From a virus, in IMG/VR virus record IMGVR_UViG_3300044998_001116, positions 1-22,140 of that record: DNA of 22,140 bases; one strand, written 5' to 3'. Shown one piece after another: positions 4,912 to 20,463 of this stretch. Each line of letters begins with the position of its first letter. Within the stretch, counting starts at the first letter, position 1. The translations under genes and the position numbers were made by a program. Under the pieces are notes generated by a model. That model ran no database searches. It was given only the letters and a program-made list of their open reading frames with translations, and was not told the DNA's origin.

Positions 4912-5703
4912 CTACTTTTTCTCATTCAGAAACTTAAACTGTAAAGTAAGCTGCTGGTTTATCATACTTAAATTCTCCTCTATTTTTTTAAGTCTTCTGG
5001 CGGGCATCGGTGCGTGCTTGGTTATCCGTGCTTCAAATTTCCACAGCTCAAATATATCTTCAAAACCAATGATATACGGTTCAAAGTCGTCATTATCGCT
5101 GTGAAGTTCTAATCCACTTTCCTGCTTTACGACACGTTTTATAATAATACCGTCATTTTTGGTTACAATTATGTATATCTCTTTGTTTCGGATATAGCTG
5201 TAATGTTCAATAAAACGGCAGATAACTATATCTCTTGGGTAGAAGGTAGGCTCCATGCTATGTCCGCTGACTTCAAACGCCCTGAATGTAGCATTATGAA
5301 AATCCGCACCGGGCAAACTGATAGTAGGCAGTTTTTTAAGAAAATCTATCATTAAACCCCCGTGTTCAAAACTTTTAAGATAGCCCGCTTCGGCTTTTTC
5401 AGGCACAAGGACTATTTTCTCCTCGTTGCTGTCATCTACCACTACGGCAACAGGAATACTTCGGTTCTCCTCTTTTTTCTCCGCATTCGCATACATTTCC
5501 CCCTCTCCCGTCAGTAGCCAGTTGCGGTTTATGCCAAGTTCGTAGGCTATGTGCGTAAGTAAAGGTAGCTCTACCTCTACTTTGTTTAACTCAATTCTTG
5601 CTAACCTGCTTTGACTTATTTTTAATCTGCTTGTTAATTCGTACTGACTTAAATTTAATTTTTCTCTCAAAAATTTAATTCGCTGATTTACAGATGTATC
5701 CAT
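4912..5703 (-). CDS. Phage repressor, XRE HTH plus S24/LexA-type peptidase
   Basis: The 263-residue protein has an N-terminal HTH (about residues 5-60, NLSQYELTSRLKISQSRLARIE) and a C-terminal S24 peptidase domain. The nucleophile is Ser149 in the SGHSMEP motif, and the base is Lys189 in IIIKRVVK, 40 residues later, as in LexA and CI. An Ala106-Gly107 pair in K-A-E-A-G-Y-L is the likely self-cleavage site. About 25 further residues after the domain look like a short coiled coil. It is divergent from the early operon, with an 83-base gap holding the early promoter. The role is maintaining lysogeny; induction by DNA damage through RecA is inferred from the family. Confidence 0.9.
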   Translation of the reverse strand: MDTSVNQRIKFLREKLNLSQYELTSRLKISQSRLARIELNKVEVELPLLTHIAYELGINRNWLLTGEGEMYANAEKKEENRSIPVAVVVDDSNEEKIVLVPEKAEAGYLKSFEHGGLMIDFLKKLPTISLPGADFHNATFRAFEVSGHSMEPTFYPRDIVICRFIEHYSYIRNKEIYIIVTKNDGIIIKRVVKQESGLELHSDNDDFEPYIIGFEDIFELWKFEARITKHAPMPARRLKKIEENLSMINQQLTLQFKFLNEKK

Positions 5704-5747
5704 AATTTTAATTTATTTTGACTTGACAAATAATTTTTAATGACTTA
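5612..5747 (+). promoter_or_regulatory. Cluster of four TGACTT repeats at the repressor/early promoter, candidate operators
   Basis: TGACTT occurs in the same orientation at 5612, 5645, 5719 and 5741; the copies at 5645 and 5741 extend to TGACTTAAATTT. Two copies lie within the repressor's first codons, and two overlap the early promoter. Such clustering suggests operator sites for the repressor or the Ner-like protein, but the sites are not palindromic and AT-richness raises chance matches. Confidence 0.35.
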
Positions 5748-5786: not shown

Positions 5787-6014
5787 ATGAAAACTATCAG
5801 AACTTATTTATCAAGAAATGATATAAAAACGCTTGCCCGTCATTTTGATGTGGCGGACTTTACCGTACAAAGGGCATTGGCGGGTTACCCCAGCGAATTG
5901 TGCAAGAACATACGTGCTTATGCGTTAAACATGATTGTTGCCAAATGGCACCAGTTCCAGCAAGACTTGCCTGAGTTCCAAAAAGAATTTGAACAAACAC
6001 AAGGCAGCAAGTAA
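5787..6014 (+). CDS. Ner-like small DNA-binding protein
   Basis: A 75-residue protein with a likely helix-turn-helix at residues 12-34 (IKTLARHFDVADFTVQRAL), followed by a helical tail ending in a charged Q-K-E-F-E-Q-T-Q. It is the first gene after the early promoter and directly precedes transposase A, the position of ner in Mu, where the protein turns down early and repressor transcription. Its stop overlaps the A start by one base (TAATG). Naming it Ner-like rests on position and the HTH; sequence kinship to Mu Ner is not demonstrated. Confidence 0.6.
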   Translation: MKTIRTYLSRNDIKTLARHFDVADFTVQRALAGYPSELCKNIRAYALNMIVAKWHQFQQDLPEFQKEFEQTQGSK

Positions 6015-7864
6015 TGGCACAGATACTCAATGGTATTTTGTGGGTTACACGGCAGGAACTGCTGGAATGCGGCGTGAGTGAAGGTGCTATAAGAAGGCGC
6101 AAATTCTGCACTTTCAAGCGTGGCGTATACGCCTACGAGGACCTACCTAAAAACTGGCAACAAGCCTTAAAAGACGGCTTGTGGCAGGGCATGGAATACA
6201 AAGAGTACTGCCAGCTAAACAGAAAAAAGCAGGAGGAATACAAAGCCAAACCGCTTAAAGAATATACGCTTTTGGAGGGTTGGCAAAACTACCTGTCTTT
6301 GTACGAAAACATTCTCAACAAGGAAATGTATGCCAAAAGCGCCGCGTGTTTGTGCAACTTTATTGCAAAAATAGGTAATACGGCATCTTTGCCCCAAATA
6401 CGCAAGCATTACCACGAATACCTTGCTACTGTGCAAAACAACGGGCTTGTGCTACCTGAGAACAAAAGGGTGTTGCAGCGTAAAATTCAGTCGTACCTTG
6501 CAGAAATACCTGTTCAGGACATAGTTTGCCCCAAAAGACAAGGCAACCAAAACGCCGCAAAGCATAACGAAAAGCTCTACGCATTCGTTGTAGAAAAGCG
6601 TGCCAACCCCAACAACTACACGGGCAGGCATATATGGCGTTTAACGAAAGAATTTGCCAAACAAAACGGCTATCCCGAACCTTCATTGGCTTGGGTAAAA
6701 AACATACTCAAAGACAAGTACACCAAGCTCATCACCAAAGAAGGCAGGTACGGCGAAAAGGCAGGCGGTTTTATTCCTGCAACCCAAGATATACAGCCCG
6801 GTGCAGTGTGGCAAATAGACGGTACGCGGATTAATTTCATTCCACACTATTACAACGGCGAAAAGAAAGCGCTCTATATAGTAGCTGTTTTAGATGTTGC
6901 CACAAGGTATATTGTGGGTTATTCGCTGTGCCACAGCGAGAGTTATGTAACTGTAAGCACAGCTTTACAAAATGCGGTACAAAACGCAGGTTACCTGCCC
7001 AAAAAACTCATTATGGACAAGTTCCCTGGACACAACACTGAACAAGCAGGCAAACTGTTTAAAAAACTTCGCTTTTTAGGCACAGAACTCCTGTTCACAA
7101 GTTCCCCCACAGGTAAAAGCCACGTAGAACGTACCTTTGGCACGCTTCAAACCGTATTCATGCAGGATATACCATACTATTACGGTGAAGGTATTCAAAG
7201 CACAAGACCGTATGCCCACAAGTCTGAAAAAGCCCTCAAAAACATTACACAACAGGCAAACCGCGAAGGCTTTGACTACGAAACCGCTTGTAAGTACGCC
7301 CATCAGGTTATACGCAAATACAATACTACTCCCGTCTGCGAGTATTCAGACAAGAAAATTACCCAAAGCCCCGCAGAATTGCACGCACACGCACAAGGCA
7401 CACCCGTACAGGAATATCATATACCCTACCTATTTTGGGAAAAAAGAGAGGTTACGGTACGCGAAAATCTTATAGAATACCACGAAAACTATCAGGAACA
7501 CTACTTTTTTGTCTATGATACCGAAACGCTTAAAAAAGTTTCAGGCAAAAAGGTAGAAATATACACTAACCACGAAACCATATACATATTTCTTGGCAAT
7601 CAGTATGTTGCTTGCGCAGAACGCACCCTTGTACAACCTAACGACTGGAAAGCTATAAACGAACTCAAAAACCAAAGAAAACAACTGCAAAAAGACTTAA
7701 AAAACGAACTCAAAGCCATTACGGACAAACTTACAGAAAATACAACAGCAGAGCATGACGAAAGCTCACTCCTGCTTAAAAAAACCGCTCCCAAGCAGGT
7801 AAAAGAGCAAAATGAAACCGCATTGCTCAAATCTATGCTGGAAGACCCTTACGACTACATTTAA
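6014..7864 (+). CDS. A: Mu-like transposase A (DDE recombinase)
   Basis: A 616-residue protein, close to MuA in length (663). The N-terminal 75 residues (WVTRQELLECGVSEGAIRRR and following) form a winged-helix-like DNA-binding region. The catalytic core holds Asp269 (QIDGTR), Asp335 (LIMDKFPGHN) and Glu372 (GKSHVERTFGTLQ), the DDE triad. The two Asp positions nearly coincide with MuA D269 and D336, while Glu comes earlier than MuA E392. A beta-barrel-like region follows, then a highly charged C-terminal tail (about 550-616) suited to contact with B. It pairs prophage ends and performs strand transfer during integration and replicative transposition. Confidence 0.93.
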   Translation: MAQILNGILWVTRQELLECGVSEGAIRRRKFCTFKRGVYAYEDLPKNWQQALKDGLWQGMEYKEYCQLNRKKQEEYKAKPLKEYTLLEGWQNYLSLYENILNKEMYAKSAACLCNFIAKIGNTASLPQIRKHYHEYLATVQNNGLVLPENKRVLQRKIQSYLAEIPVQDIVCPKRQGNQNAAKHNEKLYAFVVEKRANPNNYTGRHIWRLTKEFAKQNGYPEPSLAWVKNILKDKYTKLITKEGRYGEKAGGFIPATQDIQPGAVWQIDGTRINFIPHYYNGEKKALYIVAVLDVATRYIVGYSLCHSESYVTVSTALQNAVQNAGYLPKKLIMDKFPGHNTEQAGKLFKKLRFLGTELLFTSSPTGKSHVERTFGTLQTVFMQDIPYYYGEGIQSTRPYAHKSEKALKNITQQANREGFDYETACKYAHQVIRKYNTTPVCEYSDKKITQSPAELHAHAQGTPVQEYHIPYLFWEKREVTVRENLIEYHENYQEHYFFVYDTETLKKVSGKKVEIYTNHETIYIFLGNQYVACAERTLVQPNDWKAINELKNQRKQLQKDLKNELKAITDKLTENTTAEHDESSLLLKKTAPKQVKEQNETALLKSMLEDPYDYI

Positions 7865-7888
7865 TTCAATCTTAATCTAATAAAAACT

Positions 7889-8740
7889 ATGAACAAAAAC
7901 GAAATCGTCAATCAGTTAAGCGCCAAGCTCAAAAAATTGGGCATTAGTCAAAACAAAGCCGCAAACATGTTAAATATCAGCGGCGCAACTTTAAGTAATA
8001 TTCTTAATGGCAAATGGACAAACATCAGCGAAGCAACATGGCAAAACCTTGCCCAGTTTGTGGGTTACGGACAGGAGTGGGTGCTTGCGCCTATTGCAAA
8101 CTTTGAAAAACTGCAAAAAGTCTGTTATGATGCGCAGTATAATAGCCGTAGCGTAGCCGTCAGCCATGATGCAGGCACGGGCAAAACAGCCACGCTGAAA
8201 AATTATGCCAACAATAACCCGAACGTTATGTATGTGCAATGCGAAGAGTATTTTACTAAAAAAGGTTTTTTAACCAAACTCCTTGTGGCTTTGGGCGTAC
8301 AGGATACACACGGCAGTATAGAAGACCTTGCTGAAAAAGCCGTAGAGGCTATTGGTAAGCTCTCTAAACCACTCATTATTCTTGACGAAGCAGACAAACT
8401 TAAAGACGGCGTAATCCAACTGTATAAAACCCTGTACAACAAAACCGAAGGGTATTGCGGCTTTGTGCTGTGCGGTACGCCGAACCTGCGCATCTCCATT
8501 GAGAAAAAAGCCAGAAAAGATAAACAGGGCTACAGAGAAATACTCTCTCGTGTCGGAAGTGTGTTTGTCTCTCTGAAAAATATTACCTCAAAAGACATTC
8601 GTTTAATCTGCCAAAGCAATGGTATTGCCGAAGAAGCTACTATAAATGAGATTATCAAAAGCGCACAGGGCAAAGACCTGCGCTATGTCCGAAAAACAGT
8701 AGAAAACGCCAGAATGATAGGAGGGCGGGTAAATGCGTAA
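7889..8740 (+). CDS. B: Mu-like transposition target-selection ATPase B
   Basis: A 283-residue AAA+ ATPase. The N-terminal 60 residues form an HTH (LGISQNKAANMLNISGATLS). Walker A is AGTGKT at residues 95-100, Walker B is LIILDEAD with Asp166-Glu167, and a sensor-like L-C-G-T-P-N follows. MuB (312 residues) has the same HTH plus ATPase plan: it coats target DNA, brings it to the A transpososome and stimulates strand transfer. The gene follows A by 24 bases. Its last codons contain the Shine-Dalgarno AGGAGGG (8719-8725) of the next gene, which overlaps it by eight bases. Confidence 0.92.
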   Translation: MNKNEIVNQLSAKLKKLGISQNKAANMLNISGATLSNILNGKWTNISEATWQNLAQFVGYGQEWVLAPIANFEKLQKVCYDAQYNSRSVAVSHDAGTGKTATLKNYANNNPNVMYVQCEEYFTKKGFLTKLLVALGVQDTHGSIEDLAEKAVEAIGKLSKPLIILDEADKLKDGVIQLYKTLYNKTEGYCGFVLCGTPNLRISIEKKARKDKQGYREILSRVGSVFVSLKNITSKDIRLICQSNGIAEEATINEIIKSAQGKDLRYVRKTVENARMIGGRVNA

Positions 8741-9146
8741 CCTTGTTATGTTCCTGCTGTGCGTGTCTATGTACGGATACGCACAGCCCACACGGGAGAA
8801 CAAAGAGCGTTTGTTGGCTTTGTTAAACAACCAAAACACTCCCTTTGCGAAAGAATGGATTGTTCTTGCTGTGGCAGAAAGCGGTTTAATGCACCCAAGC
8901 AACAATCTTTTTGGCATGTATCACCCAAAGTACCGAAAAACCACCTCAGTAAGTCAGGTGGGCAAATATGCAGTGTTTCTTACATGGCAGGATGCGGTTA
9001 CCGACCTTGCGTACTGGATAGAAGTATCTCCCCCCAAAGAAAACGAACCTTTTATAGAATTTATCAGACGCAGGAGCTACAACCCTAACCCTGCATACTA
9101 TACCAAACTTCAATACTTAATTAGAAAGGAGTACAACCATGAATAG
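8733..9146 (+). CDS. Secreted glucosaminidase-like protein in the early operon
   Basis: A 137-residue protein with an N-terminal signal peptide (about residues 1-18, ending Y-G-Y-A-Q). The rest resembles the glucosaminidase (FlgJ/PF01832) fold: A-V-A-E-S-G-L with a likely catalytic Glu, N-N-L-F-G-M-Y (the NLFG motif), and F-L-T-W-Q-D-A-V-T-D-L-A-Y-W. It would act on peptidoglycan in the periplasm. The start has a strong Shine-Dalgarno (AGGAGGG, 7 bases upstream) and overlaps the end of B by eight bases. A cell-wall enzyme expressed with transposition genes is unexpected, since lysis genes lie in the late operon at 19.7 kb. It might act in superinfection exclusion, or be a lysis helper. The fold call is from short motifs. 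Confidence 0.6.
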   Translation: MRNLVMFLLCVSMYGYAQPTRENKERLLALLNNQNTPFAKEWIVLAVAESGLMHPSNNLFGMYHPKYRKTTSVSQVGKYAVFLTWQDAVTDLAYWIEVSPPKENEPFIEFIRRRSYNPNPAYYTKLQYLIRKEYNHE

Positions 9147-9456
9147 TCAGGAGTTTTTAACCAAAGAAAACCAAATGCTGCGAGCAAGAGTGCAGCAATT
9201 AGAAAAACAATTACTGGTGCTTGACCGCATCATCACGGCTATGGACAAATACAGAGACATGGATGAATTCATTACCGTTGCTGTGTTGTATAAAAATAAC
9301 ACAAAACATGGTGAAATAGACCTTAAAAACAACCATGTACACGTATTTGTGCGGGATAACGAAGAAAGTGTCTACAACAACCATATCCGTTATACTTCGC
9401 TTTTAGAGGCTTATCAGTTTTTATTTAAAGACTACAACATTCAATTCATCATATAA
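9139..9456 (+). CDS. Hypothetical protein with N-terminal coiled coil
   Basis: A 105-residue protein of no recognised family. Residues 5-40 form a likely coiled coil (ENQMLRARVQQLEKQLLVLD), and the remainder looks like a small alpha/beta domain with H-V-H-V-F-V-R-D-N. AAGGAG at 9126-9131, seven bases before the ATG, supports the start, and the gene overlaps the previous stop by eight bases. The position, between the wall enzyme and Gam in the early operon, suggests an accessory early function. Confidence 0.65.
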   Translation: MNSQEFLTKENQMLRARVQQLEKQLLVLDRIITAMDKYRDMDEFITVAVLYKNNTKHGEIDLKNNHVHVFVRDNEESVYNNHIRYTSLLEAYQFLFKDYNIQFII

Positions 9457-9458
9457 TT

Positions 9459-9893
9459 ATGGATAGTATCAAAACCATCGCCGACCGCTATGCGGAGGCA
9501 AAAACAAGGTACGACCTTGTATTAGCGGAACTAGAAAGCAAACTCACTGCGATTAAAAACCAGTACAGTGAAGAATTAGAGCAATTGGAGCAACAAATTC
9601 AACAATGCGCCGATGCACTTAAAATGTTTCATGATGAAAACAACCCCATGAACCATAAAACCCTTGGCTATGTGCGTTTTGGGTACAGGGTGGGCAGGGA
9701 AAAGGTTGTCGTACAGGATGAGCAAAAACTTGCCACGCTGTTACTGCATAAAGGCTACAACGAATTTGTACGGCACAAAGTGGAGTTAGACAAATCAGCT
9801 CTGCTCAAAAAGTGTCAAAACGACCAGTATTTTGCAGACGTGTACGGAATAGATTTGGTTAAAGAATATAAATTTTTCATTGAACTGCTATGA
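9459..9893 (+). CDS. gam: Mu Gam-like host-nuclease inhibitor
   Basis: A 144-residue protein with the Gam plan: a long N-terminal helical hairpin (residues about 1-55, LAELESKLTAIKNQYSEELE and on), then a strand motif L-G-Y-V-R-F-G-Y-R-V-G, and a C-terminal helical part with H-K-V-E-L-D-K-S-A-L-L-K, matching the G-x-(V/I)-x-(F/W)-R strand and E-x-x-K helix of the family. Mu Gam binds double-strand DNA ends as a Ku homologue and blocks RecBCD-type exonucleases. The position after A-B in the early operon fits. It ends in an ATGA overlap with the next gene. Confidence 0.85.
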   Translation: MDSIKTIADRYAEAKTRYDLVLAELESKLTAIKNQYSEELEQLEQQIQQCADALKMFHDENNPMNHKTLGYVRFGYRVGREKVVVQDEQKLATLLLHKGYNEFVRHKVELDKSALLKKCQNDQYFADVYGIDLVKEYKFFIELL

Positions 9894-10270
9894 GTAATAC
9901 GGAAGCCATCAGAACTAGCCGCCTGAATCAGATTGTGGAGTTGTTTAAGTTTTTAGAACTGAACAATGATGAAAAACTACTGTATATCATGAAGTATTGC
10001 TCTGATGAATGTGTGTTGTGTAAAGCCAGGTGCAACGAACTTAAAAATTTGCTTGACTTTTTGAACAACGAAAAACGCAAATTGTTTTCCCGTCTGCGGG
10101 AAGCGGCAGTTAGTGCGGGTTGTGTACAAAAAAGCAACCGCTCTTTAATGGACACCTGGCAGATAGATGAATTACTTATGTCTAACTGGGGTCGTACGCT
10201 TAAAAACGCAAAACGTTCCCACATCTTAAAGCTCATTCATCTTTTTGAAACAGGGGGGGTTTTACCATGA
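9890..10270 (+). CDS. Early hypothetical protein with a CX3CX2CX3C cluster
   Basis: A 126-residue protein of unknown family, coupled by ATGA overlaps on both sides. It is mostly helical and basic. Cysteines 37, 41, 44 and 48 form C-S-D-E-C-V-L-C-K-A-R-C, a spacing that could bind a metal ion, though the motif sits in a predicted helix and may be structural chance. Its location, between Gam and a replication-type protein, suggests a DNA or regulatory function. The slot roughly corresponds to the Mu gp16/GemA area, but I see no sequence likeness strong enough to name it. Confidence 0.65.
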   Translation: MSNTEAIRTSRLNQIVELFKFLELNNDEKLLYIMKYCSDECVLCKARCNELKNLLDFLNNEKRKLFSRLREAAVSAGCVQKSNRSLMDTWQIDELLMSNWGRTLKNAKRSHILKLIHLFETGGVLP

Positions 10271-10683
10271 AATACTTTCTGTACAGTGAAAAGATAACAG
10301 ACAAAATAGCTCTCAATTACGTTGGGGGCTTATTAAAATACATTGAGTTTTCTGACGGGCTTACAGACGTGCAGTACGGGTGGTTTCTTAAAAACGTACC
10401 GCACAATGAGGCTTATGTTGCCAATTTTGCCCAAGTCGGAAACTTTCAGGTGTATGCCGTGCATTCCTATACGTTTGAGGACTTTTGGGAAATGTATGGG
10501 TATAAGGTTGGAAAAAAAGAACGCGTGAAAAAACTTTGGGAGAACCTTACTGAAATTGAACAGGACAAGTGCATGGTTAGTATTCCAAAGTATAAACGTT
10601 GGCTAAACAAAAACGAAGGCATAGCTCAGTGTTATCCTGAAACCTATCTTTCGCAAAAACGGTGGGAGAACGAATACAAATAG
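10267..10683 (+). CDS. Protein with a phage replication-type C-terminal domain
   Basis: A 138-residue protein. Its second half (from about residue 70), F-E-D-F-W-E-M-Y-G-Y-K-V-G-K-K-E and onward to W-E-N-L-T-E, Y-K-R-W-L, T-Y-L-S-Q-K-R-W-E-N-E, is the short helical domain often found at the C-terminus of phage replication-initiation and primosome-like proteins, where its function is not settled. The N-terminal half is unrecognised and carries no winged-helix signature. A G-rich stretch before the start may serve as ribosome binding site. It ends the early operon, 28 bases before a convergent late gene. Confidence 0.65.
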   Translation: MKYFLYSEKITDKIALNYVGGLLKYIEFSDGLTDVQYGWFLKNVPHNEAYVANFAQVGNFQVYAVHSYTFEDFWEMYGYKVGKKERVKKLWENLTEIEQDKCMVSIPKYKRWLNKNEGIAQCYPETYLSQKRWENEYK

Positions 10684-11654: not shown

Positions 11655-13964
11655 TCAGTCATCCCTTTGCCGCTTATTTTTTTGATATATAAGAACGGGC
11701 TTTCTTATTTTAGTCATGCTCTCATAAGAAGTTATTGCGTAAAATGTAAGCATTTTGTTTGCTTTTCTTAATTTTACGACAAAATACCAATCCTGCATTG
11801 CTTTTGCTTTGATATAATATACGTTTTCTGTGTTACCCTTTTCGTTGTCTGCGGGTTCTGCCTGCCAAACCTCCATAATGTTCTCCCCTTGCAGCACTTC
11901 TGTTATGTAAGGCAAAAGTAAGTTTTTTAGAATGTATATCGGGTGAGTGTCTAGTTTATCTAAAAAGGTTTTGATGTCAGAATTGTATCCGCTTAACCTG
12001 TATGGTAATTTTTCAAATTGTATGTCGTATGCAATTAGTGTTGGTGTTTTCTTTTTTAGTGTTTGTTTTATGAATTTTTCGGAGGTTGTTTTTTTAACAT
12101 CCTCTCTTGTTTGTTTATGAATGCGCGCCCTGTGGGAAGCAAGGTTTAAATTTATGTTTTGAAAATACTTATGCTCCTTATTAAACGCCACACCTGTAAT
12201 ACCTGGATTGTTTTCAAATACATCTCCCTCAGTTTGAAGTTCAAGAGGTTTGTCTGTATAATTTTCGGGCAGTTCGGCAAGTTTTTTTACCGTACAACGG
12301 CAGTTATAGCCGTTAGGCGGGTAATGGGTTTCCCAAAACGGGTCGCTTACAGGTTTAATAATGCCGTCTAAGGCTTTGTGTGCGGGGCGCACATGGTCAT
12401 CATGGGCGGTAATGTACTGCAAATACGGGAACTCTTCTTTGCTTTCCTGTATCTGTATCCATTTTTTTGCCATTCTTGCAGAGGACTTAAAGTGGTTGGC
12501 TTCGGTTGCGGTATAGTTCTCATGCAGGCTTTTGTATACAGACGCCTTTCGGTCATCAGCGGCATTGCGGACTACCTCCCACACATAACGCGCTTTGGCG
12601 TAGCTGAACCTGTACGCGTTTTCCCGTAACTGTAAAAAACGATACCCTTCTAAATTGCCCCAGTTCGGATTCTTAAAACCTTTTTCAATAGCAGTTAAAA
12701 AGGTGTTTTTGTAGTATTCAAACAAAAGAGAAACAGCGTCGTTTTCAGGTAATTTTAATAGTTTTTCAGCGTTATCTAAATCGTTTTTGAACAGAAACTT
12801 ACGAATACCTTTGAGTGTTTTTTGCCAAAACGAAAGTTTTGCAGGCGGATAGTCCAAGTCCAAAGGATTGTGTTTTTTGTTTGTGTTTATAGGTTTTTTC
12901 TGTGTGGTTTTAGGTTTTGGAGGTTCAGGTTTGGTTTTAGACTGTGGTTTGGTAAAAGGCGTGTTGTATTTTTGGCTGAGGTATTCGGTATCTAAGGGCA
13001 AGCCGAGTTCTAACATTTCTTTGTGAATTTTCCATTGTTCTGCGAGTGGTAGAGTATCCTGTTGTACCCAGTCAAACGTATAATTGAGTTTGAGGTACGG
13101 GAATATAGTTTTGTTTAGCCAGTTTTTGATTTTTTCTTTGTCCTGCCATGCAATAGCTTCTGCCTGCGTCTGATGCACTTGTGCTGCGCCTACGTAGCTT
13201 TTTTCGTCAGTAGTGCCTGTTTGTCCAATAATGAGTTTTGAGAGTTCGCTGTTACATCTTTCTATCATTTTGTCGTACACTTCAAAGGCGTCAGCGCTGG
13301 AACTGTTTACAAATTCTAATTCATCTTCGGTGTCTATTACTGCAAAAGCGGCTTTGCTCATATTTTCCAAATCTCTGTATAACTGTTGCCGTGCCTGTTC
13401 ATCTTTTTTGTCGGTTTTGAGTACGCGCACGGGCATGCCAAAAAGTTCTATGTATTCGCTCCATGCGGCTGTGGCAAAACGTTTATAGAACACTATCGGA
13501 CAGGCTTTGTGTAATAAACCCAAGTCGTTTTTCTCGCCGAAAGAAAGTAAAGTCGGTTCTTTTTCTACTTTTATGCGATTTTCACCTTTGAGGTCTAAAA
13601 GAATTTCGCCTGTTACAGGAATGACGTGCCTGCGGGGAATAAGGTAAAAATCTCCCTGCCAGTATTCCAATACTGTATAACCATACAGTTCCGTTTCAGA
13701 AAGCCATGCTATCACTTTGTGTATCCATGCTGGGGCTTCGGCTAATGTTTTGCCCTGCTTGATTACAAATTCGCTTTGTAGTACATTGGCTTTGCGGTTC
13801 TGCACCACTGCGGAGGTGTGGCAGTCTATCATAATGTCTGTGTACAAGTCCTGTAAAAGGTCGTATCTGGGCCGATAGTAACTTTCTGCGGCGTATGTAG
13901 CCCGCTTCCAGTAGTCTAAATTTTTTCCAAAGGTATACTTCGGGCTTCGTTCAATGGTTATCAT
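11655..13964 (-). CDS. Fused portal (gp29, DUF935-like) and minor head protein (gp30/SPP1 gp7-like)
   Basis: A 769-residue fusion. Residues 1 to about 335 are portal-like: Y-W-K-R-A-T-Y-A-A-E near 18-27, I-D-C-H-T-S-A-V-V-Q-N-R at 46-57, and T-D-E-K-S-Y-V-G-A-A-Q-V-H at 252-264. Residues 340-370 form a Pro/Lys-rich linker. Residues 370-600 contain the gp7 minor-head domain with the signature T-A-H-D-D-H-V-R-P-A-H at 519-529 and the Cys-rich P-P-N-G-Y-N-C-R-C at 549-557. Residues about 610-769 form an extra C-terminal domain with the strand pattern N-V-Y-Y-I-K-A-K, W-Y-F-V-V-K-L and Y-A-I-T-S-Y, reminiscent of BECR (barnase/EndoU/RelE-type) nuclease-like domains seen on phage head proteins. 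In Mu the portal (gp29) and gp30 are separate genes. Confidence 0.82.
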   Translation of the reverse strand: MITIERSPKYTFGKNLDYWKRATYAAESYYRPRYDLLQDLYTDIMIDCHTSAVVQNRKANVLQSEFVIKQGKTLAEAPAWIHKVIAWLSETELYGYTVLEYWQGDFYLIPRRHVIPVTGEILLDLKGENRIKVEKEPTLLSFGEKNDLGLLHKACPIVFYKRFATAAWSEYIELFGMPVRVLKTDKKDEQARQQLYRDLENMSKAAFAVIDTEDELEFVNSSSADAFEVYDKMIERCNSELSKLIIGQTGTTDEKSYVGAAQVHQTQAEAIAWQDKEKIKNWLNKTIFPYLKLNYTFDWVQQDTLPLAEQWKIHKEMLELGLPLDTEYLSQKYNTPFTKPQSKTKPEPPKPKTTQKKPINTNKKHNPLDLDYPPAKLSFWQKTLKGIRKFLFKNDLDNAEKLLKLPENDAVSLLFEYYKNTFLTAIEKGFKNPNWGNLEGYRFLQLRENAYRFSYAKARYVWEVVRNAADDRKASVYKSLHENYTATEANHFKSSARMAKKWIQIQESKEEFPYLQYITAHDDHVRPAHKALDGIIKPVSDPFWETHYPPNGYNCRCTVKKLAELPENYTDKPLELQTEGDVFENNPGITGVAFNKEHKYFQNINLNLASHRARIHKQTREDVKKTTSEKFIKQTLKKKTPTLIAYDIQFEKLPYRLSGYNSDIKTFLDKLDTHPIYILKNLLLPYITEVLQGENIMEVWQAEPADNEKGNTENVYYIKAKAMQDWYFVVKLRKANKMLTFYAITSYESMTKIRKPVLIYQKNKRQRDD

Positions 13965-14475: not shown

Positions 14476-15303
14476 TTACAGGTAAAATTCAAAGGTCATG
14501 GGGATAAAATATTCGTCTGTGGGGTTTGCACTGAAATACATTTTGCCATCGGGGTCTATGGTACACGCACCGTAATTCAATCCACCAAGAATAACATTAA
14601 GCGATACAACCTGACGAAATGACGGTCTGTACCCTGCGGGCAGAGTAAGAAAGGGAAAAGCAAAGTCGCTGTAGGCGCCTGCACGCATATTGCCCCTGAA
14701 CTGCACGCTTCCCCACTGGGTTTTTCTGAACCAAAGCCCTGTATTGTATGGGGGAGTGGCGGCATCAGCAAAATAGTTTTCATAGCTCGGGTTGCCAGAT
14801 GTGCCTACTCTGCGCCAAGGTTCTTGTACTTTGTCTGCTTTGAGGTTCATCTGTCCTGCCAGATAGCCTGCAGTAACCAGATTGCTCAAATACGCTTCTA
14901 ATGCGTTTTGCAGGGTAATTCTCAATACTCCTGACGAGCTCACTTTGATTGGGCTTGGGTCGCTGGTTATCGCCGTAATAGCGGCGTGATGGTTTTTAAA
15001 GATGGCTTTAGTAGAAGCGTCTGCAAACGGTCTGAAGGTTTCTTCGGCATCTGCGGGGGAAAGTTGACCTGTGGCGATGTCGGTTTCGCCGCTAAAAAAC
15101 CGTATTTTACCGTCAAGCCATACGTACCCCGCGGTAATGTTGTAGGTTAAGTCTATATTTTGGCTAACCTCGCACCCGCTCAGTACACAGGGTTGCAGGC
15201 TGTGTAAAATTTGCTCACAGCCCGTTAAGGCTTCTTTTTGTAGAGTTACAAGGTCATTGACAAACATGCCTTGTCCGCCAGGTTTAGATAACAGTTCTTT
15301 CAT
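14476..15303 (-). CDS. Fibre-like/receptor-interaction-type phage protein
   Basis: A 275-residue protein not matching a family I can name. The layout, with an N-terminal segment, an I-T-A-G-Y-V-W-L-D-G-K-I-R motif near 55-67, and a beta-rich C-terminal domain (T-G-L-W-F-R-K-T-Q-W-G-S-V-Q-F-R-G, P-A-G-Y-R-P, T-I-D-P-D-G-K-M-Y-F), is typical of phage fibres and their collar-like tip domains. The start has a good AAGGAG Shine-Dalgarno nine bases upstream (15318-15313 on the minus strand). It is unusual to find a fibre-like gene between terminase and head-completion genes. No DGR reverse transcriptase lies in the window. Confidence 0.55.
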   Translation of the reverse strand: MKELLSKPGGQGMFVNDLVTLQKEALTGCEQILHSLQPCVLSGCEVSQNIDLTYNITAGYVWLDGKIRFFSGETDIATGQLSPADAEETFRPFADASTKAIFKNHHAAITAITSDPSPIKVSSSGVLRITLQNALEAYLSNLVTAGYLAGQMNLKADKVQEPWRRVGTSGNPSYENYFADAATPPYNTGLWFRKTQWGSVQFRGNMRAGAYSDFAFPFLTLPAGYRPSFRQVVSLNVILGGLNYGACTIDPDGKMYFSANPTDEYFIPMTFEFYL

Positions 15304-16787
15304 TAAAACGTTCTCCTTTCTATGGTTTTGAATAGTTTTTTGGTTTGCATAAAGTTTGGATTGTATTTTTGAAGCAGGTAAATGGCGCCCTCATCTGCAT
15401 CAGGCGCGTCGTCATTTACAGTGCTGCCGTCTTCAAACAGTAAGGTTTGTTCTACGCTTTTTTGCATATCTGCATCGTCTTTTTGGCTGATGTCATAGAT
15501 AATCAAGCCATTTTCGTACAGGGGTGTAAGGGCTTCAATGCGCTGTAGTTTATTGGGTTTTCTGCGTTTATCTCTGCGTACAGGTAAAAAATATCCTTTT
15601 TCCTGTGATACTCTGTGAACCTCCTGCATGATAAATTCCTGTACAAACTGCTCTTCTATCCATATTTCTGCGGCGGGATATTGTTCGTGCCAATTGTACA
15701 AGGTTTCTATCATAGTTTTGATAGTGGTCTGGCGTACAAATGCTTTCAGACAATAGTACTGTATGCCGTATTTGCCCCAAAGTTTTATGGCCTTATAGTC
15801 TCCTTTGGCAGAAAAGGATGGGTCGCAGTAGATAATGAGTTTGGCTTTCTGAAAAAAATCTGCGGGCAAAGATGTGTATTGTATCCATTCGGGCTTAAAT
15901 ACTTTGCCCTCCTCTACGGGTTCGTTTTGGTATTCCCGCAAAAACTCTTTTGTGCCAATACGCTGTTTTATGTCATTAAAGTACGCTGTGGTGTATTTTT
16001 CTTTCCATGTGGGTTTATTTTTAGCATCCAGTGCGTTTGCCTGAATCACCTTAAAGCCCTTTTGCTCTAAGTTTGCGTTTATGCTGTTCTTGGCAAACAG
16101 GTTTCCTGCCAAAACAAATCGTGCATTGCCTATATCAAAACAACCCATAAGGTCTTGCAGTATCCATGTAACGGCATCTTGTATGCGGCTTCTGTTGCGG
16201 GAGAGTTCGGAAGTGTCTACGTCATCACAAACAATATAATCAGGTCTGTGGCGACCCCTGCGTAATCCTCTTGGGCTTTGTCCCATGCCCAGTGCTACAA
16301 ATGCAACCCCGTTTTGTGTAGTAAATTCTCCGTCCTGCCAGTCCCCTTGTTTAAACTGTTCTCCAAAGTCGTTAATAATTCTTTGGTTTTCCATGAGTTG
16401 CGCCTGCAAGTCTCCCAAAAGCCTTTTGGCGCTGTTTAGGTTCTGTCCCGTAATGACCCCGAATTTAAGTTCGTTTTTTACCATCAGCCATAGCGGTAAG
16501 AATACGCAGGCATGCATACTCTTGGCTGCACCCCTGTGCCACCGCAAAATAACATTGCATCGGTTGTGTGCCGTAATATAATGGCAGGCATCTATATGAA
16601 ATTTTGCACAGGACGCATTGGCAAAATCGGGAAAATAATACTGACAAAACGCGTTGTAATCATTTAGTAAAGTATTCAGACGGCTTTTTTTCTCTGTTTC
16701 GGTTTCTTTTTTTACCTGCGTGGAGGTTTTAATCTGTTCGCACAGTTTTAAGAACTCCCTGTATTCCTGTGTTTCTTTTTTTGCCAT
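15303..16787 (-). CDS. Terminase large subunit (Mu gp28-like)
   Basis: A 494-residue two-domain motor. The ATPase part has a Walker A-like R-W-H-R-G-A-A-K-S at residues 82-90 and Walker B Y-I-V-C-D-D-V-D at 184-191. The coupling-like F-V-L-A-G-N-L is at 224-230. The RNase H-fold nuclease part has D322 in I-I-Y-C-D-P-S-F-S, E378/E379 in I-W-I-E-E-Q, and a late acidic cluster D-D-A-P-D-A-D-E-G (459-467). It packages DNA by cutting prophage-host junctions. Its stop overlaps the fibre-like start by one base, and its own start overlaps the small-subunit stop. Confidence 0.9.
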   Translation of the reverse strand: MAKKETQEYREFLKLCEQIKTSTQVKKETETEKKSRLNTLLNDYNAFCQYYFPDFANASCAKFHIDACHYITAHNRCNVILRWHRGAAKSMHACVFLPLWLMVKNELKFGVITGQNLNSAKRLLGDLQAQLMENQRIINDFGEQFKQGDWQDGEFTTQNGVAFVALGMGQSPRGLRRGRHRPDYIVCDDVDTSELSRNRSRIQDAVTWILQDLMGCFDIGNARFVLAGNLFAKNSINANLEQKGFKVIQANALDAKNKPTWKEKYTTAYFNDIKQRIGTKEFLREYQNEPVEEGKVFKPEWIQYTSLPADFFQKAKLIIYCDPSFSAKGDYKAIKLWGKYGIQYYCLKAFVRQTTIKTMIETLYNWHEQYPAAEIWIEEQFVQEFIMQEVHRVSQEKGYFLPVRRDKRRKPNKLQRIEALTPLYENGLIIYDISQKDDADMQKSVEQTLLFEDGSTVNDDAPDADEGAIYLLQKYNPNFMQTKKLFKTIERRTF

Positions 16788-17215
16788 TATTGTTTGTGTT
16801 TGATGTATTCCTGCGCTAATTGCGCTACGTCTTCAGCATAATTTGGGTGCTGCATCTGAACCCAGTGCATAAAATCGGTCATCACAAAAATTCGGTTGCT
16901 CAGATTGTTTCTGCCTGATATTTTTTCGAGTGCGGCGCTCATTTTGGCAATGGCATCAATATCGCCAACCAATATTTCTTCTTTTCGAGCAAGCCCCTGC
17001 ATGAACTTGTTGCTCACCTCGTAAGCCAATTTCTCTATATTTGTAGCGCTGACCTTGCGGGCTTTTTTAATTTCCTGCCACTTGTCCTGTTTTGCCCATT
17101 TTTCTACGGTTCGCGGGCTAATGTCCAAAAGCCTTGCTATCTGCTCATTAGACAAATCGCTGTTCATGTAGTATTCCATAGCCAAAAGTTTGGCGTTGCG
17201 CTTAATGTTTGCCAT
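16787..17215 (-). CDS. Terminase small subunit (Mu gp27-like, DUF1804-type)
   Basis: Start chosen at ATG 17215 (M-A-N-I-K-R-N-A-K), giving about 142 residues; an earlier ATG at 17302 lies deep in the previous gene and adds an unlikely low-complexity N-terminus. It has an HTH for phage DNA recognition at about 27-47 (NEQIARLLDISPRTVEKWAK) with D-K-W at the end, then a helical oligomerisation region and a C-terminal segment. This is the pattern of terminase small subunits. It overlaps the HTH gene upstream by 14 bases and the large subunit by one base. Confidence 0.85.
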   Translation of the reverse strand: MANIKRNAKLLAMEYYMNSDLSNEQIARLLDISPRTVEKWAKQDKWQEIKKARKVSATNIEKLAYEVSNKFMQGLARKEEILVGDIDAIAKMSAALEKISGRNNLSNRIFVMTDFMHWVQMQHPNYAEDVAQLAQEYIKHKQ

Positions 17216-17462
17216 ATTTGTCAAACAGGTTAAGTTTAAGTTGTTGTACTTCCTGTACTTTTTGCTGATATTCGTCAATAAGCAAAAGCAGTTCTTTTTC
17301 AATGACAGGCATATTTAATTTACCGCAGGCTACGCGATAGACCTGGTCTGTGCTGTATTTGCCTTTTAGCCTGTTTACAATCTCTTTGCCGTAACCGCGG
17401 GGCAGGAGTTTGCGCATATCGGTTTTGGTACTTTTTGTAGCCGAATTTATTTTGACTTCCAT
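17202..17462 (-). CDS. Small HTH protein, candidate late transcription regulator
   Basis: Start chosen at ATG 17462, giving about 86 residues (M-E-V-K-I-N-S). It lies 4 bases after the minus-strand -7 box TATCTTTG (17474-17467), so a transcript would be almost leaderless; starts at 17510 (upstream of the promoter) or 17417 are alternatives. The protein contains L-P-R-G-Y-G-K-E-I-V-N-R-L, Y-S-T-D-Q-V-Y-R-V-A-C-G, then an acidic helical tail. The pattern looks like a short XRE-type HTH common in Bacteroidetes mobile elements. As first gene of the leftward late operon next to the divergent control region it is a candidate late activator, or autoregulator. No Mor/C likeness is seen. Confidence 0.7.
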   Translation of the reverse strand: MEVKINSATKSTKTDMRKLLPRGYGKEIVNRLKGKYSTDQVYRVACGKLNMPVIEKELLLLIDEYQQKVQEVQQLKLNLFDKYGKH

Positions 17463-17466
17463 GCTA

Positions 17467-17474
17467 CAAAGATA
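17467..17474 (-). promoter_or_regulatory. Leftward late promoter -7 box TATCTTTG
   Basis: Minus-strand TATCTTTG, four bases before the ATG at 17462, perfectly fits TAnnTTTG. I find no TTG at the -33 spacing, which suggests activator dependence. Confidence 0.6.
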
Positions 17475-17516
17475 CGCACCGTAAAAAGATTTTTCTATTA
17501 TTTTACACAAAAAGCT

Positions 17517-17535
17517 GTAATTTACTGTAAATTAC
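17517..17535. promoter_or_regulatory. 19-bp perfect palindrome between divergent late promoters, candidate operator
   Basis: GTAATTTAC-T-GTAAATTAC has nine-base perfect arms around a single central base. It is centred at 17526, about 45 bases before the predicted start of the rightward transcript and about 60 before the leftward one, typical activator distances. Partners for it are the adjacent HTH protein or a host regulator. Confidence 0.55.
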
Positions 17536-17559
17536 TATAAAATACAGCAATAATGCCCG

Positions 17560-17567
17560 TATCTTTG
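17560..17567 (+). promoter_or_regulatory. Rightward late promoter -7 box TATCTTTG
   Basis: TATCTTTG, ten bases before the ATG at 17578, matches TAnnTTTG and is identical to the leftward box. It lacks a TTG -33 element, and the palindrome lies where an activator would bind. Confidence 0.6.
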
Positions 17568-17577
17568 CAAAAAAAAT

Positions 17578-18432
17578 ATGGCAACTTATTTTCTGTATTC
17601 CGATATTAACGAATGGACAACCTATACACTGTCAGAGTTTTTGGCGGAGAAAAAGAACGAGAACCTTACAGTACGCATTAACAGCAACGGCGGTAGTGTC
17701 AATCACGGGATTGCTATGTACAATCTTCTACAGAACTACCGCGGTCAGGTAACTACGGTGGTAGACGGGGCATGTTACAGCGCTGCAGTGTTGCCATTTT
17801 TAGCAGGTGGTAGGCGCTATATGAACCCTGGCAGTACCTTGCTCATTCATTCAGTAAGTTCGGAGTATATCCCCAGTGTAGACGCAGATGGACTTCGCAA
17901 GCACGCAGATGCGATTGAACAGTTGGAAAAAATCATTATTGATATTTACATGAACACGGTCGGCAAAACTGACGAAGCTACGCGCGCAATGTTTGCAGAA
18001 ATGATGAAAAAAGAAACCCTGCTGACCGCTGAGGAAGCTGTAAAACTAGGTTTTTGTGAAATTCCAAAGCAAAGCATTTACATAGACAAAGGCGTTATGG
18101 AATTTGCTAATCATATCCAAAAAACTAACAAGAAACTGTTGCAGGAATTAGAACAGTACAAAAAACAGGAGATTGAACGTTTTTTGGAAGATGTACCCGA
18201 AGAAGCCAAAAAAGCTGTATCTGCATTAGCCCATACAAACATGGACGAAGCCAAAAAACTCAAAGAGTTTATTCTTAAAAACAGCAGACCTCCCGTGTTC
18301 AGCCAAATTCAGAGCAACGGCATCCGCAACGAATGGGCGCTGAACGACTGGCGCAAAAAAGACCCCGCGGGGCTTGAAAAACTTAAAAAAGACAATCCTG
18401 AATACTTTAACGAACTTCTTAAACGTAACTAA
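17578..18432 (+). CDS. ClpP-like prohead protease with scaffold tail (Mu gpI-like)
   Basis: A 284-residue protein. Residues about 1-165 are a ClpP-fold protease: R-I-N-S-N-G-G-S at 33-40, nucleophile Ser68 in G-A-C-Y-S-A-A, and His91 in L-L-I-H-S. The following Lys/Glu-rich helical portion (about 175-284) is a scaffold-like tail, ending D-N-P-E-Y-F-N-E-L-L. In Mu, gpI/Z provide protease and scaffold from one gene, so the role is procapsid assembly and cleavage. It is the first gene of the rightward late operon, with the -7 box ten bases upstream. Confidence 0.87.
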   Translation: MATYFLYSDINEWTTYTLSEFLAEKKNENLTVRINSNGGSVNHGIAMYNLLQNYRGQVTTVVDGACYSAAVLPFLAGGRRYMNPGSTLLIHSVSSEYIPSVDADGLRKHADAIEQLEKIIIDIYMNTVGKTDEATRAMFAEMMKKETLLTAEEAVKLGFCEIPKQSIYIDKGVMEFANHIQKTNKKLLQELEQYKKQEIERFLEDVPEEAKKAVSALAHTNMDEAKKLKEFILKNSRPPVFSQIQSNGIRNEWALNDWRKKDPAGLEKLKKDNPEYFNELLKRN

Positions 18433-18830: not shown

Positions 18831-19709
18831 ATGGCAGGACTTAATATAGAAATCTGGGAACGGCAAATTCAGGAGCAGTTTATCCCAAAAAATGACTTTT
18901 TGCAGGACGGTTTGGACTATTCACTATTTACCACGAATGATGGTATCAATGTACCTGTATCTGGCGAATTGATTGAGGCACGGTTTAACCCCACTTTACC
19001 CATGACGGTAACTACCCGCACAGATGACAACAATGCAGTAATCATGCACGACCTGGCTACACAACCCACGCGCATCACTAACCCCGAAAGTGTGGAACTG
19101 TCTTACGACAAAATGGAGAGTGTAATTCGTTCCCACAGAGATAGCTTACAGCAGGCTATTGGCAACCGCACTTTGTTTGAGATAGCCCCCGCATCCAACG
19201 CTGCTGCGCTTCCTGTAATTGCAGCCACAGGTACAGCCACATCGGGCAACCCTAAACCTGTCACCAAAGATGATATTGCCCAACTTGCCGAGATTTTTGA
19301 CAAAAATAACTTTCCACAAGGTAGAACATTAGTGCTTACTCCGTTTCAGTTTTGGAACTTGGTAAACAACGACACCGCGCTACAAAATCAGTACTCGTAT
19401 ACCAGCAAAGGGGGCGAAATTACAGGCACGTTGCTGTATTACTACGGTTTTAAAATCCGTATGCGCACAGGCACCCCGAATTATACGCAGGCACTCACTA
19501 AGCAGACTTTTGGTACAAATGACGCAAATAGCCGCCAGACGGCTATTGCTTATGTAGACAAAAAGTGGTTCTTTGGATACACTGACCCCAAAATGATTGC
19601 CACGCAAACCCCTGAATATCTCGGAGATGTGTTTAACTTCTGGTGTCGTTTTGGTGCAGGACGGCTTGCGTCCCGCGCGGTAGGCGCTATTGTATCGATT
19701 AATGCTTAA
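18831..19709 (+). CDS. Major capsid protein, HK97-fold type
   Basis: A 292-residue protein after the protease and small head protein, the normal capsid slot. The text reads as a compact capsid protein: N-terminal helix W-E-R-Q-I-Q-E-Q-F near residues 9-17, long helical spine with Y-D-K-M-E-S-V-I-R-S-H-R, a P-domain-like part with I-F-D-K-N-N-F-P-Q-G-R-T-L-V-L-T-P, and a late F-G-A-G-R-L-A-S-R-A-V-G-A-I. Length resembles Mu gpT (305). The HK97 fold is inferred from family behaviour and context. Confidence 0.8.
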   Translation: MAGLNIEIWERQIQEQFIPKNDFLQDGLDYSLFTTNDGINVPVSGELIEARFNPTLPMTVTTRTDDNNAVIMHDLATQPTRITNPESVELSYDKMESVIRSHRDSLQQAIGNRTLFEIAPASNAAALPVIAATGTATSGNPKPVTKDDIAQLAEIFDKNNFPQGRTLVLTPFQFWNLVNNDTALQNQYSYTSKGGEITGTLLYYYGFKIRMRTGTPNYTQALTKQTFGTNDANSRQTAIAYVDKKWFFGYTDPKMIATQTPEYLGDVFNFWCRFGAGRLASRAVGAIVSINA

Positions 19710-19731: not shown

Positions 19732-20463
19732 ATGAAAATTTTAACCATAACAATAGCTGTGATGTTGGCAGTAGTCATTTCCACGGCGCAGGCAAAAGAA
19801 AATCAAAACTTTATGAAAGAGTTTACTATTGAGTTTGTTCCTCTAAACAAACATTTCAAGGGCAACGGACAGGCAAAAACGCAGATTGTTTTGCATCACA
19901 CGGTAGGCGGAGGTAAACCCACCCCTGTGGTAGAGTACTGGGATAAATACGTTACAGGTAGAGTGGGAACACACTTTGTTATTGGAAAAAACGGGGAAAT
20001 TGTCCAAACTATGGATTTGCAGGACTGGGCAAGCCATGTAAACTGTGATGGCAAAGGCAATGTGGGCAACGGTAAACAGGTGCTGGATATTGAGCGGCGA
20101 ACAATAGGTATAGAGTTGTGCGCGTGGGGCGGTCTGGTAGAATACAAAGGCAAATTTTACACATCTTACGGAGTAAAACCGCAAAACATCATAGAGGAAG
20201 ACAAGGTATACAGGTGCGATTTTCGGGGCTTTAAGGCGTATGACAGGTACTCTGAGCCGCAACTACTTGCCCTAAAACAACTGCTTGTGTTTCTTGGCAA
20301 TACTTTGAGTTTAGACATAACCAAAACCTGCGCATCAAACTTTGAACTTTCAGACAAAGCACACGCGCAGGAAATGGTAGTATGTAGCCATACGAACTTC
20401 CGAAAAGATAAATCTGATGTGTTTCCGCAACCCGAACTGATTGACCTGTTACAGTCTTTATGA
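19732..20463 (+). CDS. Exported N-acetylmuramoyl-L-alanine amidase (endolysin)
   Basis: A 243-residue amidase_2 protein that cuts the amide link between MurNAc and the peptide stem. Zinc-site residues are H55 in V-L-H-H-T-V-G, H220 in V-C-S-H-T and D229 in K-S-D-V-F-P; T-H-F-V-I-G-K-N-G at 80-88 and Glu128 in I-G-I-E-L complete the pattern. Residues 1-22 are a signal peptide-like hydrophobic stretch ending A-Q-A-K, so export by Sec is expected and holin would not be strictly needed to move it. It heads a lysis cassette coupled by ATGA to the membrane protein that follows. Confidence 0.85.
   Translation: MKILTITIAVMLAVVISTAQAKENQNFMKEFTIEFVPLNKHFKGNGQAKTQIVLHHTVGGGKPTPVVEYWDKYVTGRVGTHFVIGKNGEIVQTMDLQDWASHVNCDGKGNVGNGKQVLDIERRTIGIELCAWGGLVEYKGKFYTSYGVKPQNIIEEDKVYRCDFRGFKAYDRYSEPQLLALKQLLVFLGNTLSLDITKTCASNFELSDKAHAQEMVVCSHTNFRKDKSDVFPQPELIDLLQSL

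Follow-up and report, generated by a model that had tools for sequence, protein, structure and literature searches.

The described systems with which the present locus can best be compared are phage Mu and the hankyphage p00. In Mu, the site of Mor is centred near -43.5 (PMC4390567) and that of C lies just upstream of the -35 position (PMC4461284). In the hankyphage, silencing of the CI-like master repressor RepC-HP raises the expression of most phage genes, and the accessible part of that report names no late activator (PMC12135933). In the literature searched, the start of late transcription in temperate phages of Bacteroidota appears undescribed.

The locus analysed here belongs to an IMG/VR record of 22,140 bases (the whole stretch, hereafter the window) from a Mu-like phage of Bacteroidota. 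The window carries MuA- and MuB-like genes, a CI-type repressor with a peptidase domain, a Mu-type portal/F protein, gp36, terminase, a Clp-type head protease and capsid, with the terminase operon running opposite to the protease/capsid operon, which places it within the divergent late layout of Bacteroidota Mu-like phages (Table 1). The 115-base gap between these operons is probably a late divergent control region. This agrees with the original prediction of late control sending packaging genes one way and head and lysis genes the other, which both the operon layout and the relatives support.

The locus resembles Mor/C control in its late promoters without a good -35 element, in the site just upstream of them and in the small dimeric helix-turn-helix (HTH) activator proposed here. 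However, it consists of one divergent pair of back-to-back promoters, the candidate regulator (an 86-residue protein, HTH86) is encoded inside a late operon, and no Mor-family protein was found in the window. The hankyphage shares the same architecture and the CI-like master repressor, but it has neither HTH86, nor the c16 family described below, nor the 74+21n spacing between promoter boxes set out there.

Promoters and repeats of the divergent gap

The gap is 73% AT and contains the only two copies of TATCTTTG in the window, facing outward and 86 bp apart. Both are perfect -7 consensus boxes. No TTG is found 16–21 nt upstream of either of them, the sole TTG being 33 nt away on the terminase side, unlike the early promoter of the window, whose box at 5746 has a TTG at the usual 20-nt gap. 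In the relatives the boxes are mostly non-consensus, with an exact TAnnTTTG in only 8 of 88, so the late promoters of the window may need less help.

As the -7 box occupies positions -12 to -5 (PMC9723704), transcription starts can be predicted for both promoters. With the annotated ATGs, HTH86 would have a leader of 0 nt and the protease one of 6 nt. If HTH86 instead starts at Met16 (codon from 17417), its leader would be 45 nt long. Since leaders below 10 nt are scarce in B. thetaiotaomicron (about 3.7% of 5' UTRs; PMC7366714), Met16 may be the true start, which also fits the disordered first 13 residues of the protein.

Table 1. Positions in the window of the features considered in this work
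Feature	Position	Strand	Remarks
CI-type repressor gene	4912-5703		
Early operon: 75-aa HTH-like protein at the Ner position, MuA, MuB, Gam-like, others	5787-10683	+	3' end without a c16 gene
Mu-type portal fused to F-like protein	11655-13964	-	
Terminase large subunit	15303-16787	-	phrog_38, 2.6e-79
Terminase small subunit	16787-17215	-	
HTH86, 86-aa predicted HTH protein; opens the terminase operon	17202-17462	-	overlaps the start of the terminase small subunit; alternative start Met16
Probable divergent late promoter/operator gap, 115 bases	17463-17577		same gene-pair gap in about 70 relatives
-7 box TATCTTTG of the HTH86/terminase operon	17467-17474	-	predicted +1 = 17462
Possible degenerate operator TTATTTTACACAAAAAGCT, weak	17498-17516		11/19; mirror position for the terminase promoter, as expected from relatives with two operators
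Three 10-bp direct repeats CTGTAATTTA/CTGTAAATTA/CTATAAAATA	17515-17544		17/20 matches at shift 10; 0/3,000 shuffles
19-bp perfect palindrome GTAATTTACTGTAAATTAC, main putative operator	17517-17535		dyad 17526
Second site, overlapping the palindrome and spanning the -33 position of the protease promoter	17527-17545		16/19 match to the palindrome, ranking second across the window
-7 box TATCTTTG of the protease/capsid operon	17560-17567	+	predicted +1 = 17572
Clp-type head maturation protease; opens the rightward operon	17578-18432	+	
Major capsid protein	18831-19709	+	
Amidase (endolysin)	19732-20463	+	

Between the boxes lies GTAATTTACTGTAAATTAC, the longest perfect palindrome of the window. 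Measured to the box starts, its dyad is 34 bp away on the protease side (about -46) and 52 bp away on the terminase side (about -64), so that a dyad-symmetric site stands just upstream of promoters with no -33 TTG. A palindrome of equal length appeared in 55 of 20,000 shuffles of the gap (0.3%), but also anywhere in 8 of 60 whole-window shuffles (13%); for this reason its length alone does not carry the case, and its position matters more. The palindrome forms part of an array of 10-bp direct repeats, in which it is the best pair and which the original prediction had not noticed. Because it repeats at the 10-bp shift, a second, overlapping site is created next to it. The much weaker match TTATTTTACACAAAAAGCT might provide a mirror site at -45 from the terminase start.

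The main elements of the original prediction are thus present: two identical outward-facing -7 boxes, the absence of -33 elements, the 19-bp perfect palindrome between the boxes, and leaders of less than about 10 bases, the last being right provided that the annotated ATGs are used. As for the HTH protein gene said to open the leftward operon, the open reading frame (17462-17202) is real and its HTH is predicted by AlphaFold2.

Spacing rule and c16 family in the relatives

Relatives were gathered with a terminase profile (79 further viral contigs), and named phages by tblastn of a phage collection. The set is chosen by terminase similarity and weighted to gut phages, and many of its loci are fragments. 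No close relative was recovered with the protease or capsid protein as query, a DNA-level search among phages gave no match, and a single scan of genome contigs yielded one distant Clostridia prophage only.

The divergent gap is conserved in nearly all relatives whose sequence extends far enough, with terminase genes on one side and protease and capsid genes on the other, and their early operon is convergent to the terminase operon. This divergent layout is also found in Winogradskyella phage Peternella, Flavobacterium phage fF4 and the hankyphage, across gut, marine and fish-pathogen hosts. The inverted repeats in these gaps sort into types. In the first, the operator GTGTGnAACnnTTnCACAC is present twice, 21 bp apart; in the second, the operator GAGTGTAAAnnnTTTACACTC is present once. 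Both types place every operator dyad 37 bp away from where a -7-like box starts.

The distance between the outward -7-like boxes, measured on the boxes alone and ignoring the operators, is exactly 95 bp in 30 and exactly 74 bp in 14 of the 67 non-redundant relatives, with shuffle maxima of 3 and 2, respectively. The complete phage L077 has 116 bp between boxes and three operators, and the records added later gave 116 bp (L164 and L165) and 95 bp (L114). As read from these gaps, the spacing rule is 74+21n bp with n+1 operators. In the whole or near-whole contigs scanned, allowing up to two or three mismatches, the two main operator motifs were confined to the gap, bar one overlap of both patterns. 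An activator that contacts RNA polymerase requires just such a combination of a fixed operator–promoter distance and full helical turns between operators. The proposal of an operator at an activator-like distance is in keeping with this rule, since promoter-proximal operators with rigid spacing are the norm in the relatives.

A TTTG is found 19–20 nt upstream of the -7 box in 39 of 44 protease-side and 16 of 44 terminase-side promoters (55 of 88 in total). The operators of the relatives are flanked by A/T runs on both sides, and the flanking T run contains this -33 TTTG. The Mu-like phages of P. gingivalis and Elizabethkingia showed neither c16 nor a convincing spacing.

Gene clustering revealed c16, an undescribed HTH family of 75–96 residues whose gene usually closes the early operon, a position that corresponds to that of mor and c in Mu. 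A profile search found it in 18 phages at E<1e-24 (L127:12443-12673 in G014, L133:9770-10006 in G019 and 16 other contigs). Its predicted fold comprises three helices, and it has no Pfam, PHROG, NCBIfam or PDB match. The second helix of its HTH covaries with the operator: the SERTFYN type accompanies GTGTGnAAC pairs, the CYRT(Y/F)L type single GAGTGTAAA sites, and SERAMYK GAACGCAGTTC. Furthermore, the 74+21n spacing is present in 16 of the 18 c16 phages and in none of the four phages, the window included, whose early region is complete yet lacks c16 (Fisher p 0.002, a test that counts related phages as independent). Judging from these sequences, most relatives appear to use c16 as a candidate late regulator with its own operators. 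Neither this type of control nor the spacing rule was found in the open literature searched, which does not cover all journals.

At this end of the early operon, phages without c16 encode different small proteins (G004:10307-10525, L021:26070-26339, L163:25816-26079). These are alike by eye (EFFI...I..RI) and are possibly a second regulator family.

The window shares with the c16-type phages the divergent gap, the operons and the palindromic operators between outward -7 boxes. In those relatives, however, dyads lie 37 bp from the boxes, operators advance in 21-bp steps, degenerate -7 boxes often come with a -33 TTTG, and the regulator is usually the last early gene. The window, by contrast, has its dyad at 34 and 52 bp, 10-bp repeats of a different operator, perfect -7 boxes with no -33 element, and HTH86 instead of c16, for which the best profile match in the window is 0.13. 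With boxes 86 bp apart, a distance outside the 74+21n series, and with these dyad distances, the rule of the relatives is not directly transferable to the window.

Two results of the comparison could be put to the test in laboratory Bacteroides that carry hankyphage-like prophages: the concrete rule of 74+21n bp between boxes and 37 bp from dyad to box, and c16 as a candidate regulator family, together with its operators. The window seems to have swapped regulator and operator, leaving gap and operons unchanged, which makes it a case for the evolution of activator geometry. The gap may also supply a small, tight two-way promoter for Bacteroides genetics.

HTH86 as candidate regulator and rival readings

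The AlphaFold2 model of HTH86, built from the single sequence, shows an HTH at residues 25-45 and a long helix at 52-83 (pLDDT about 85–90), and this helix could dimerise. No family model matches the protein, it has no similarity to the Ner-position protein of the window, and no sequence match gives its function; fold searches with the HTH86 and c16 models returned no significant match. A homologue search in viral contigs, phages, plasmids and 40 phage records found only L002, besides a weak match in the contig of L004 (39% over 29 residues). L002 is the only close relative of the window (76% terminase identity). Its HTH86 C-terminus is 47% identical and shows the same overlap with the terminase small subunit; the contig ends inside the HTH86 gene, before the gap.

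The original suggestion that the system is perhaps distinct from Mor/C stands, as no match to the Mor family (PF08765) was found in the window. None exceeded the Pfam cut-off in any of 39 phage records, and neither HTH86 nor c16 matches Mor.

The boxes, the repeat array, the operon layout and the rigid operator–promoter spacing of the relatives point to the following mechanism. Two sigma-A-type promoters, each with a good -7 box and no -33 element, would face outward from the gap. A small dimeric HTH protein would bind the palindromic 10-bp-repeat array between them and recruit RNA polymerase on both sides, so that the terminase/portal operon and the protease/capsid/lysis operon would start together. 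The regulator would most likely be HTH86, standing in for the early-operon protein c16 that most relatives seem to use. An activator encoded only within the operon that it activates requires priming, and leaky transcription could possibly provide this and set off a positive feedback loop.

We put the chance that HTH86 activates the gap promoters in place of c16 at about even, both its binding and the activation being inferred. Its candidacy is favoured by the lack of c16 in the window, by its own presence there, by the unique palindrome and by the dyad at -46, near the -43.5 of Mor. Against it, the candidate of most relatives is a different small HTH family, encoded at the end of the early operon. 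The main rival, which we consider unlikely, makes HTH86 an autorepressor: the promoters would be strong unaided, and binding to the array would keep the late genes off in the lysogen or limit them late. The perfect TATCTTTG boxes would suit such a role, as would tandem 10-bp sites, which favour cooperative repression; HTH86 is the first gene and adjoins its own putative operator, the overlapping second site lies over the -33 region on the protease side, and Flavobacterium promoters may not require a -33 element (PMC7366714). However, the best site lies at -46/-64, upstream of the promoter core, the lysogen already carries a CI-type repressor gene, and the operators of the relatives precede an otherwise defective promoter at a constant distance, the signature of activation.

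Alternatively, the palindrome could be recognised by a different protein of phage or host origin, for example the 126-aa product of the early operon (9890-10270), with HTH86 having some other role. That the candidate of most relatives comes from the early operon and that HTH86 is rare both speak for this, yet we regard it as quite unlikely: the window has no c16-like gene, and no recognised DNA-binding domain was found in its last early genes, one of which (10267-10683) resembles replication initiation proteins. A packaging (pac) site recognised by the terminase small subunit is a highly improbable reading of the repeats. They do adjoin the terminase gene, and this subunit carries an HTH, but the fixed 37-bp spacing to both promoters serves no packaging role and the hankyphage, with the same layout, packages from its left end, taking in host DNA at that point (PMC12135933). 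Hardly any credence is given to a bidirectional terminator or chance AT-rich sequence, which the A/T runs around the operators of the relatives and the composition of the gap might suggest. No terminator-like site was found in the gap of the window, the flanking T run in the relatives holds the -33 TTTG, and the box-spacing statistics argue against chance.

C-terminal tails and further observations

HTH86 ends in QLKLNLF(DKYGKH), the last early protein of the hankyphage (L021:26070-26339) in QLSLF, and several c16 members in QLxLF. An xLF motif near the C-terminus is present in 11 of 18 c16 proteins against 3.5% of other ORFs, and the strict QLxLF in 5 of 18 against 0.4%; as c16 members are related to each other, this enrichment counts as one observation, not many. 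We take these tails to resemble sliding-clamp binding peptides (QLxLF or QLxLxLF). By analogy, the HTH late regulators might bind the host sliding clamp by their tails while on the divergent operator, coupling late transcription to replication, although we judge this decidedly unlikely. If true, late genes would be on only with replication clamps loaded, a T4-like principle built from unrelated parts. T4 late transcription, which relies on the gp45 clamp, gp33 and gp55, is tied to replication (PMC2988020, PMC7892883). The resemblance to T4 is by analogy only, through the clamp-motif-like tails of HTH86 and several c16 proteins; unlike in T4, no phage-encoded clamp or sigma factor was seen here.

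A conserved 80-aa protein with a weak, sub-cut-off Mor-like HTH is often found beside a DNA methyltransferase gene (L102:1423-1665 in the hankyphage, L104, L106, L107). It was discarded as a late activator on account of its position near the late end, next to methyltransferase genes, which is unlike that of a late activator.

In the window, positions 634-2222 hold an N6/N4 DNA methyltransferase beside a DUF6997 protein at the contig end, possibly restriction-modification cargo. The early operon includes a glucosaminidase-like gene (8733-9146), flanked by MuB and the Gam-like gene. The tail genes are split (4646-2472 and 11566-10711): V and W end the terminase operon, while the J, I, G-like and X-like genes are found past the repressor. 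It therefore looks as if the early module had been inserted between W and J, which is odd, since the early genes of transposable phages usually mark one end.

Finally, a tRNA-Met (CAT) gene separates the late -7 box from the protease gene in L054, L061, L063 (which has two), L080, L085, L089, L101, L014 and L004. None was present in the two paired-operator loci checked; apart from L004, the loci with the tRNA gene are of the single-operator 74-bp type or carry the same motif. In such loci, the tRNA gene would head the protease operon.
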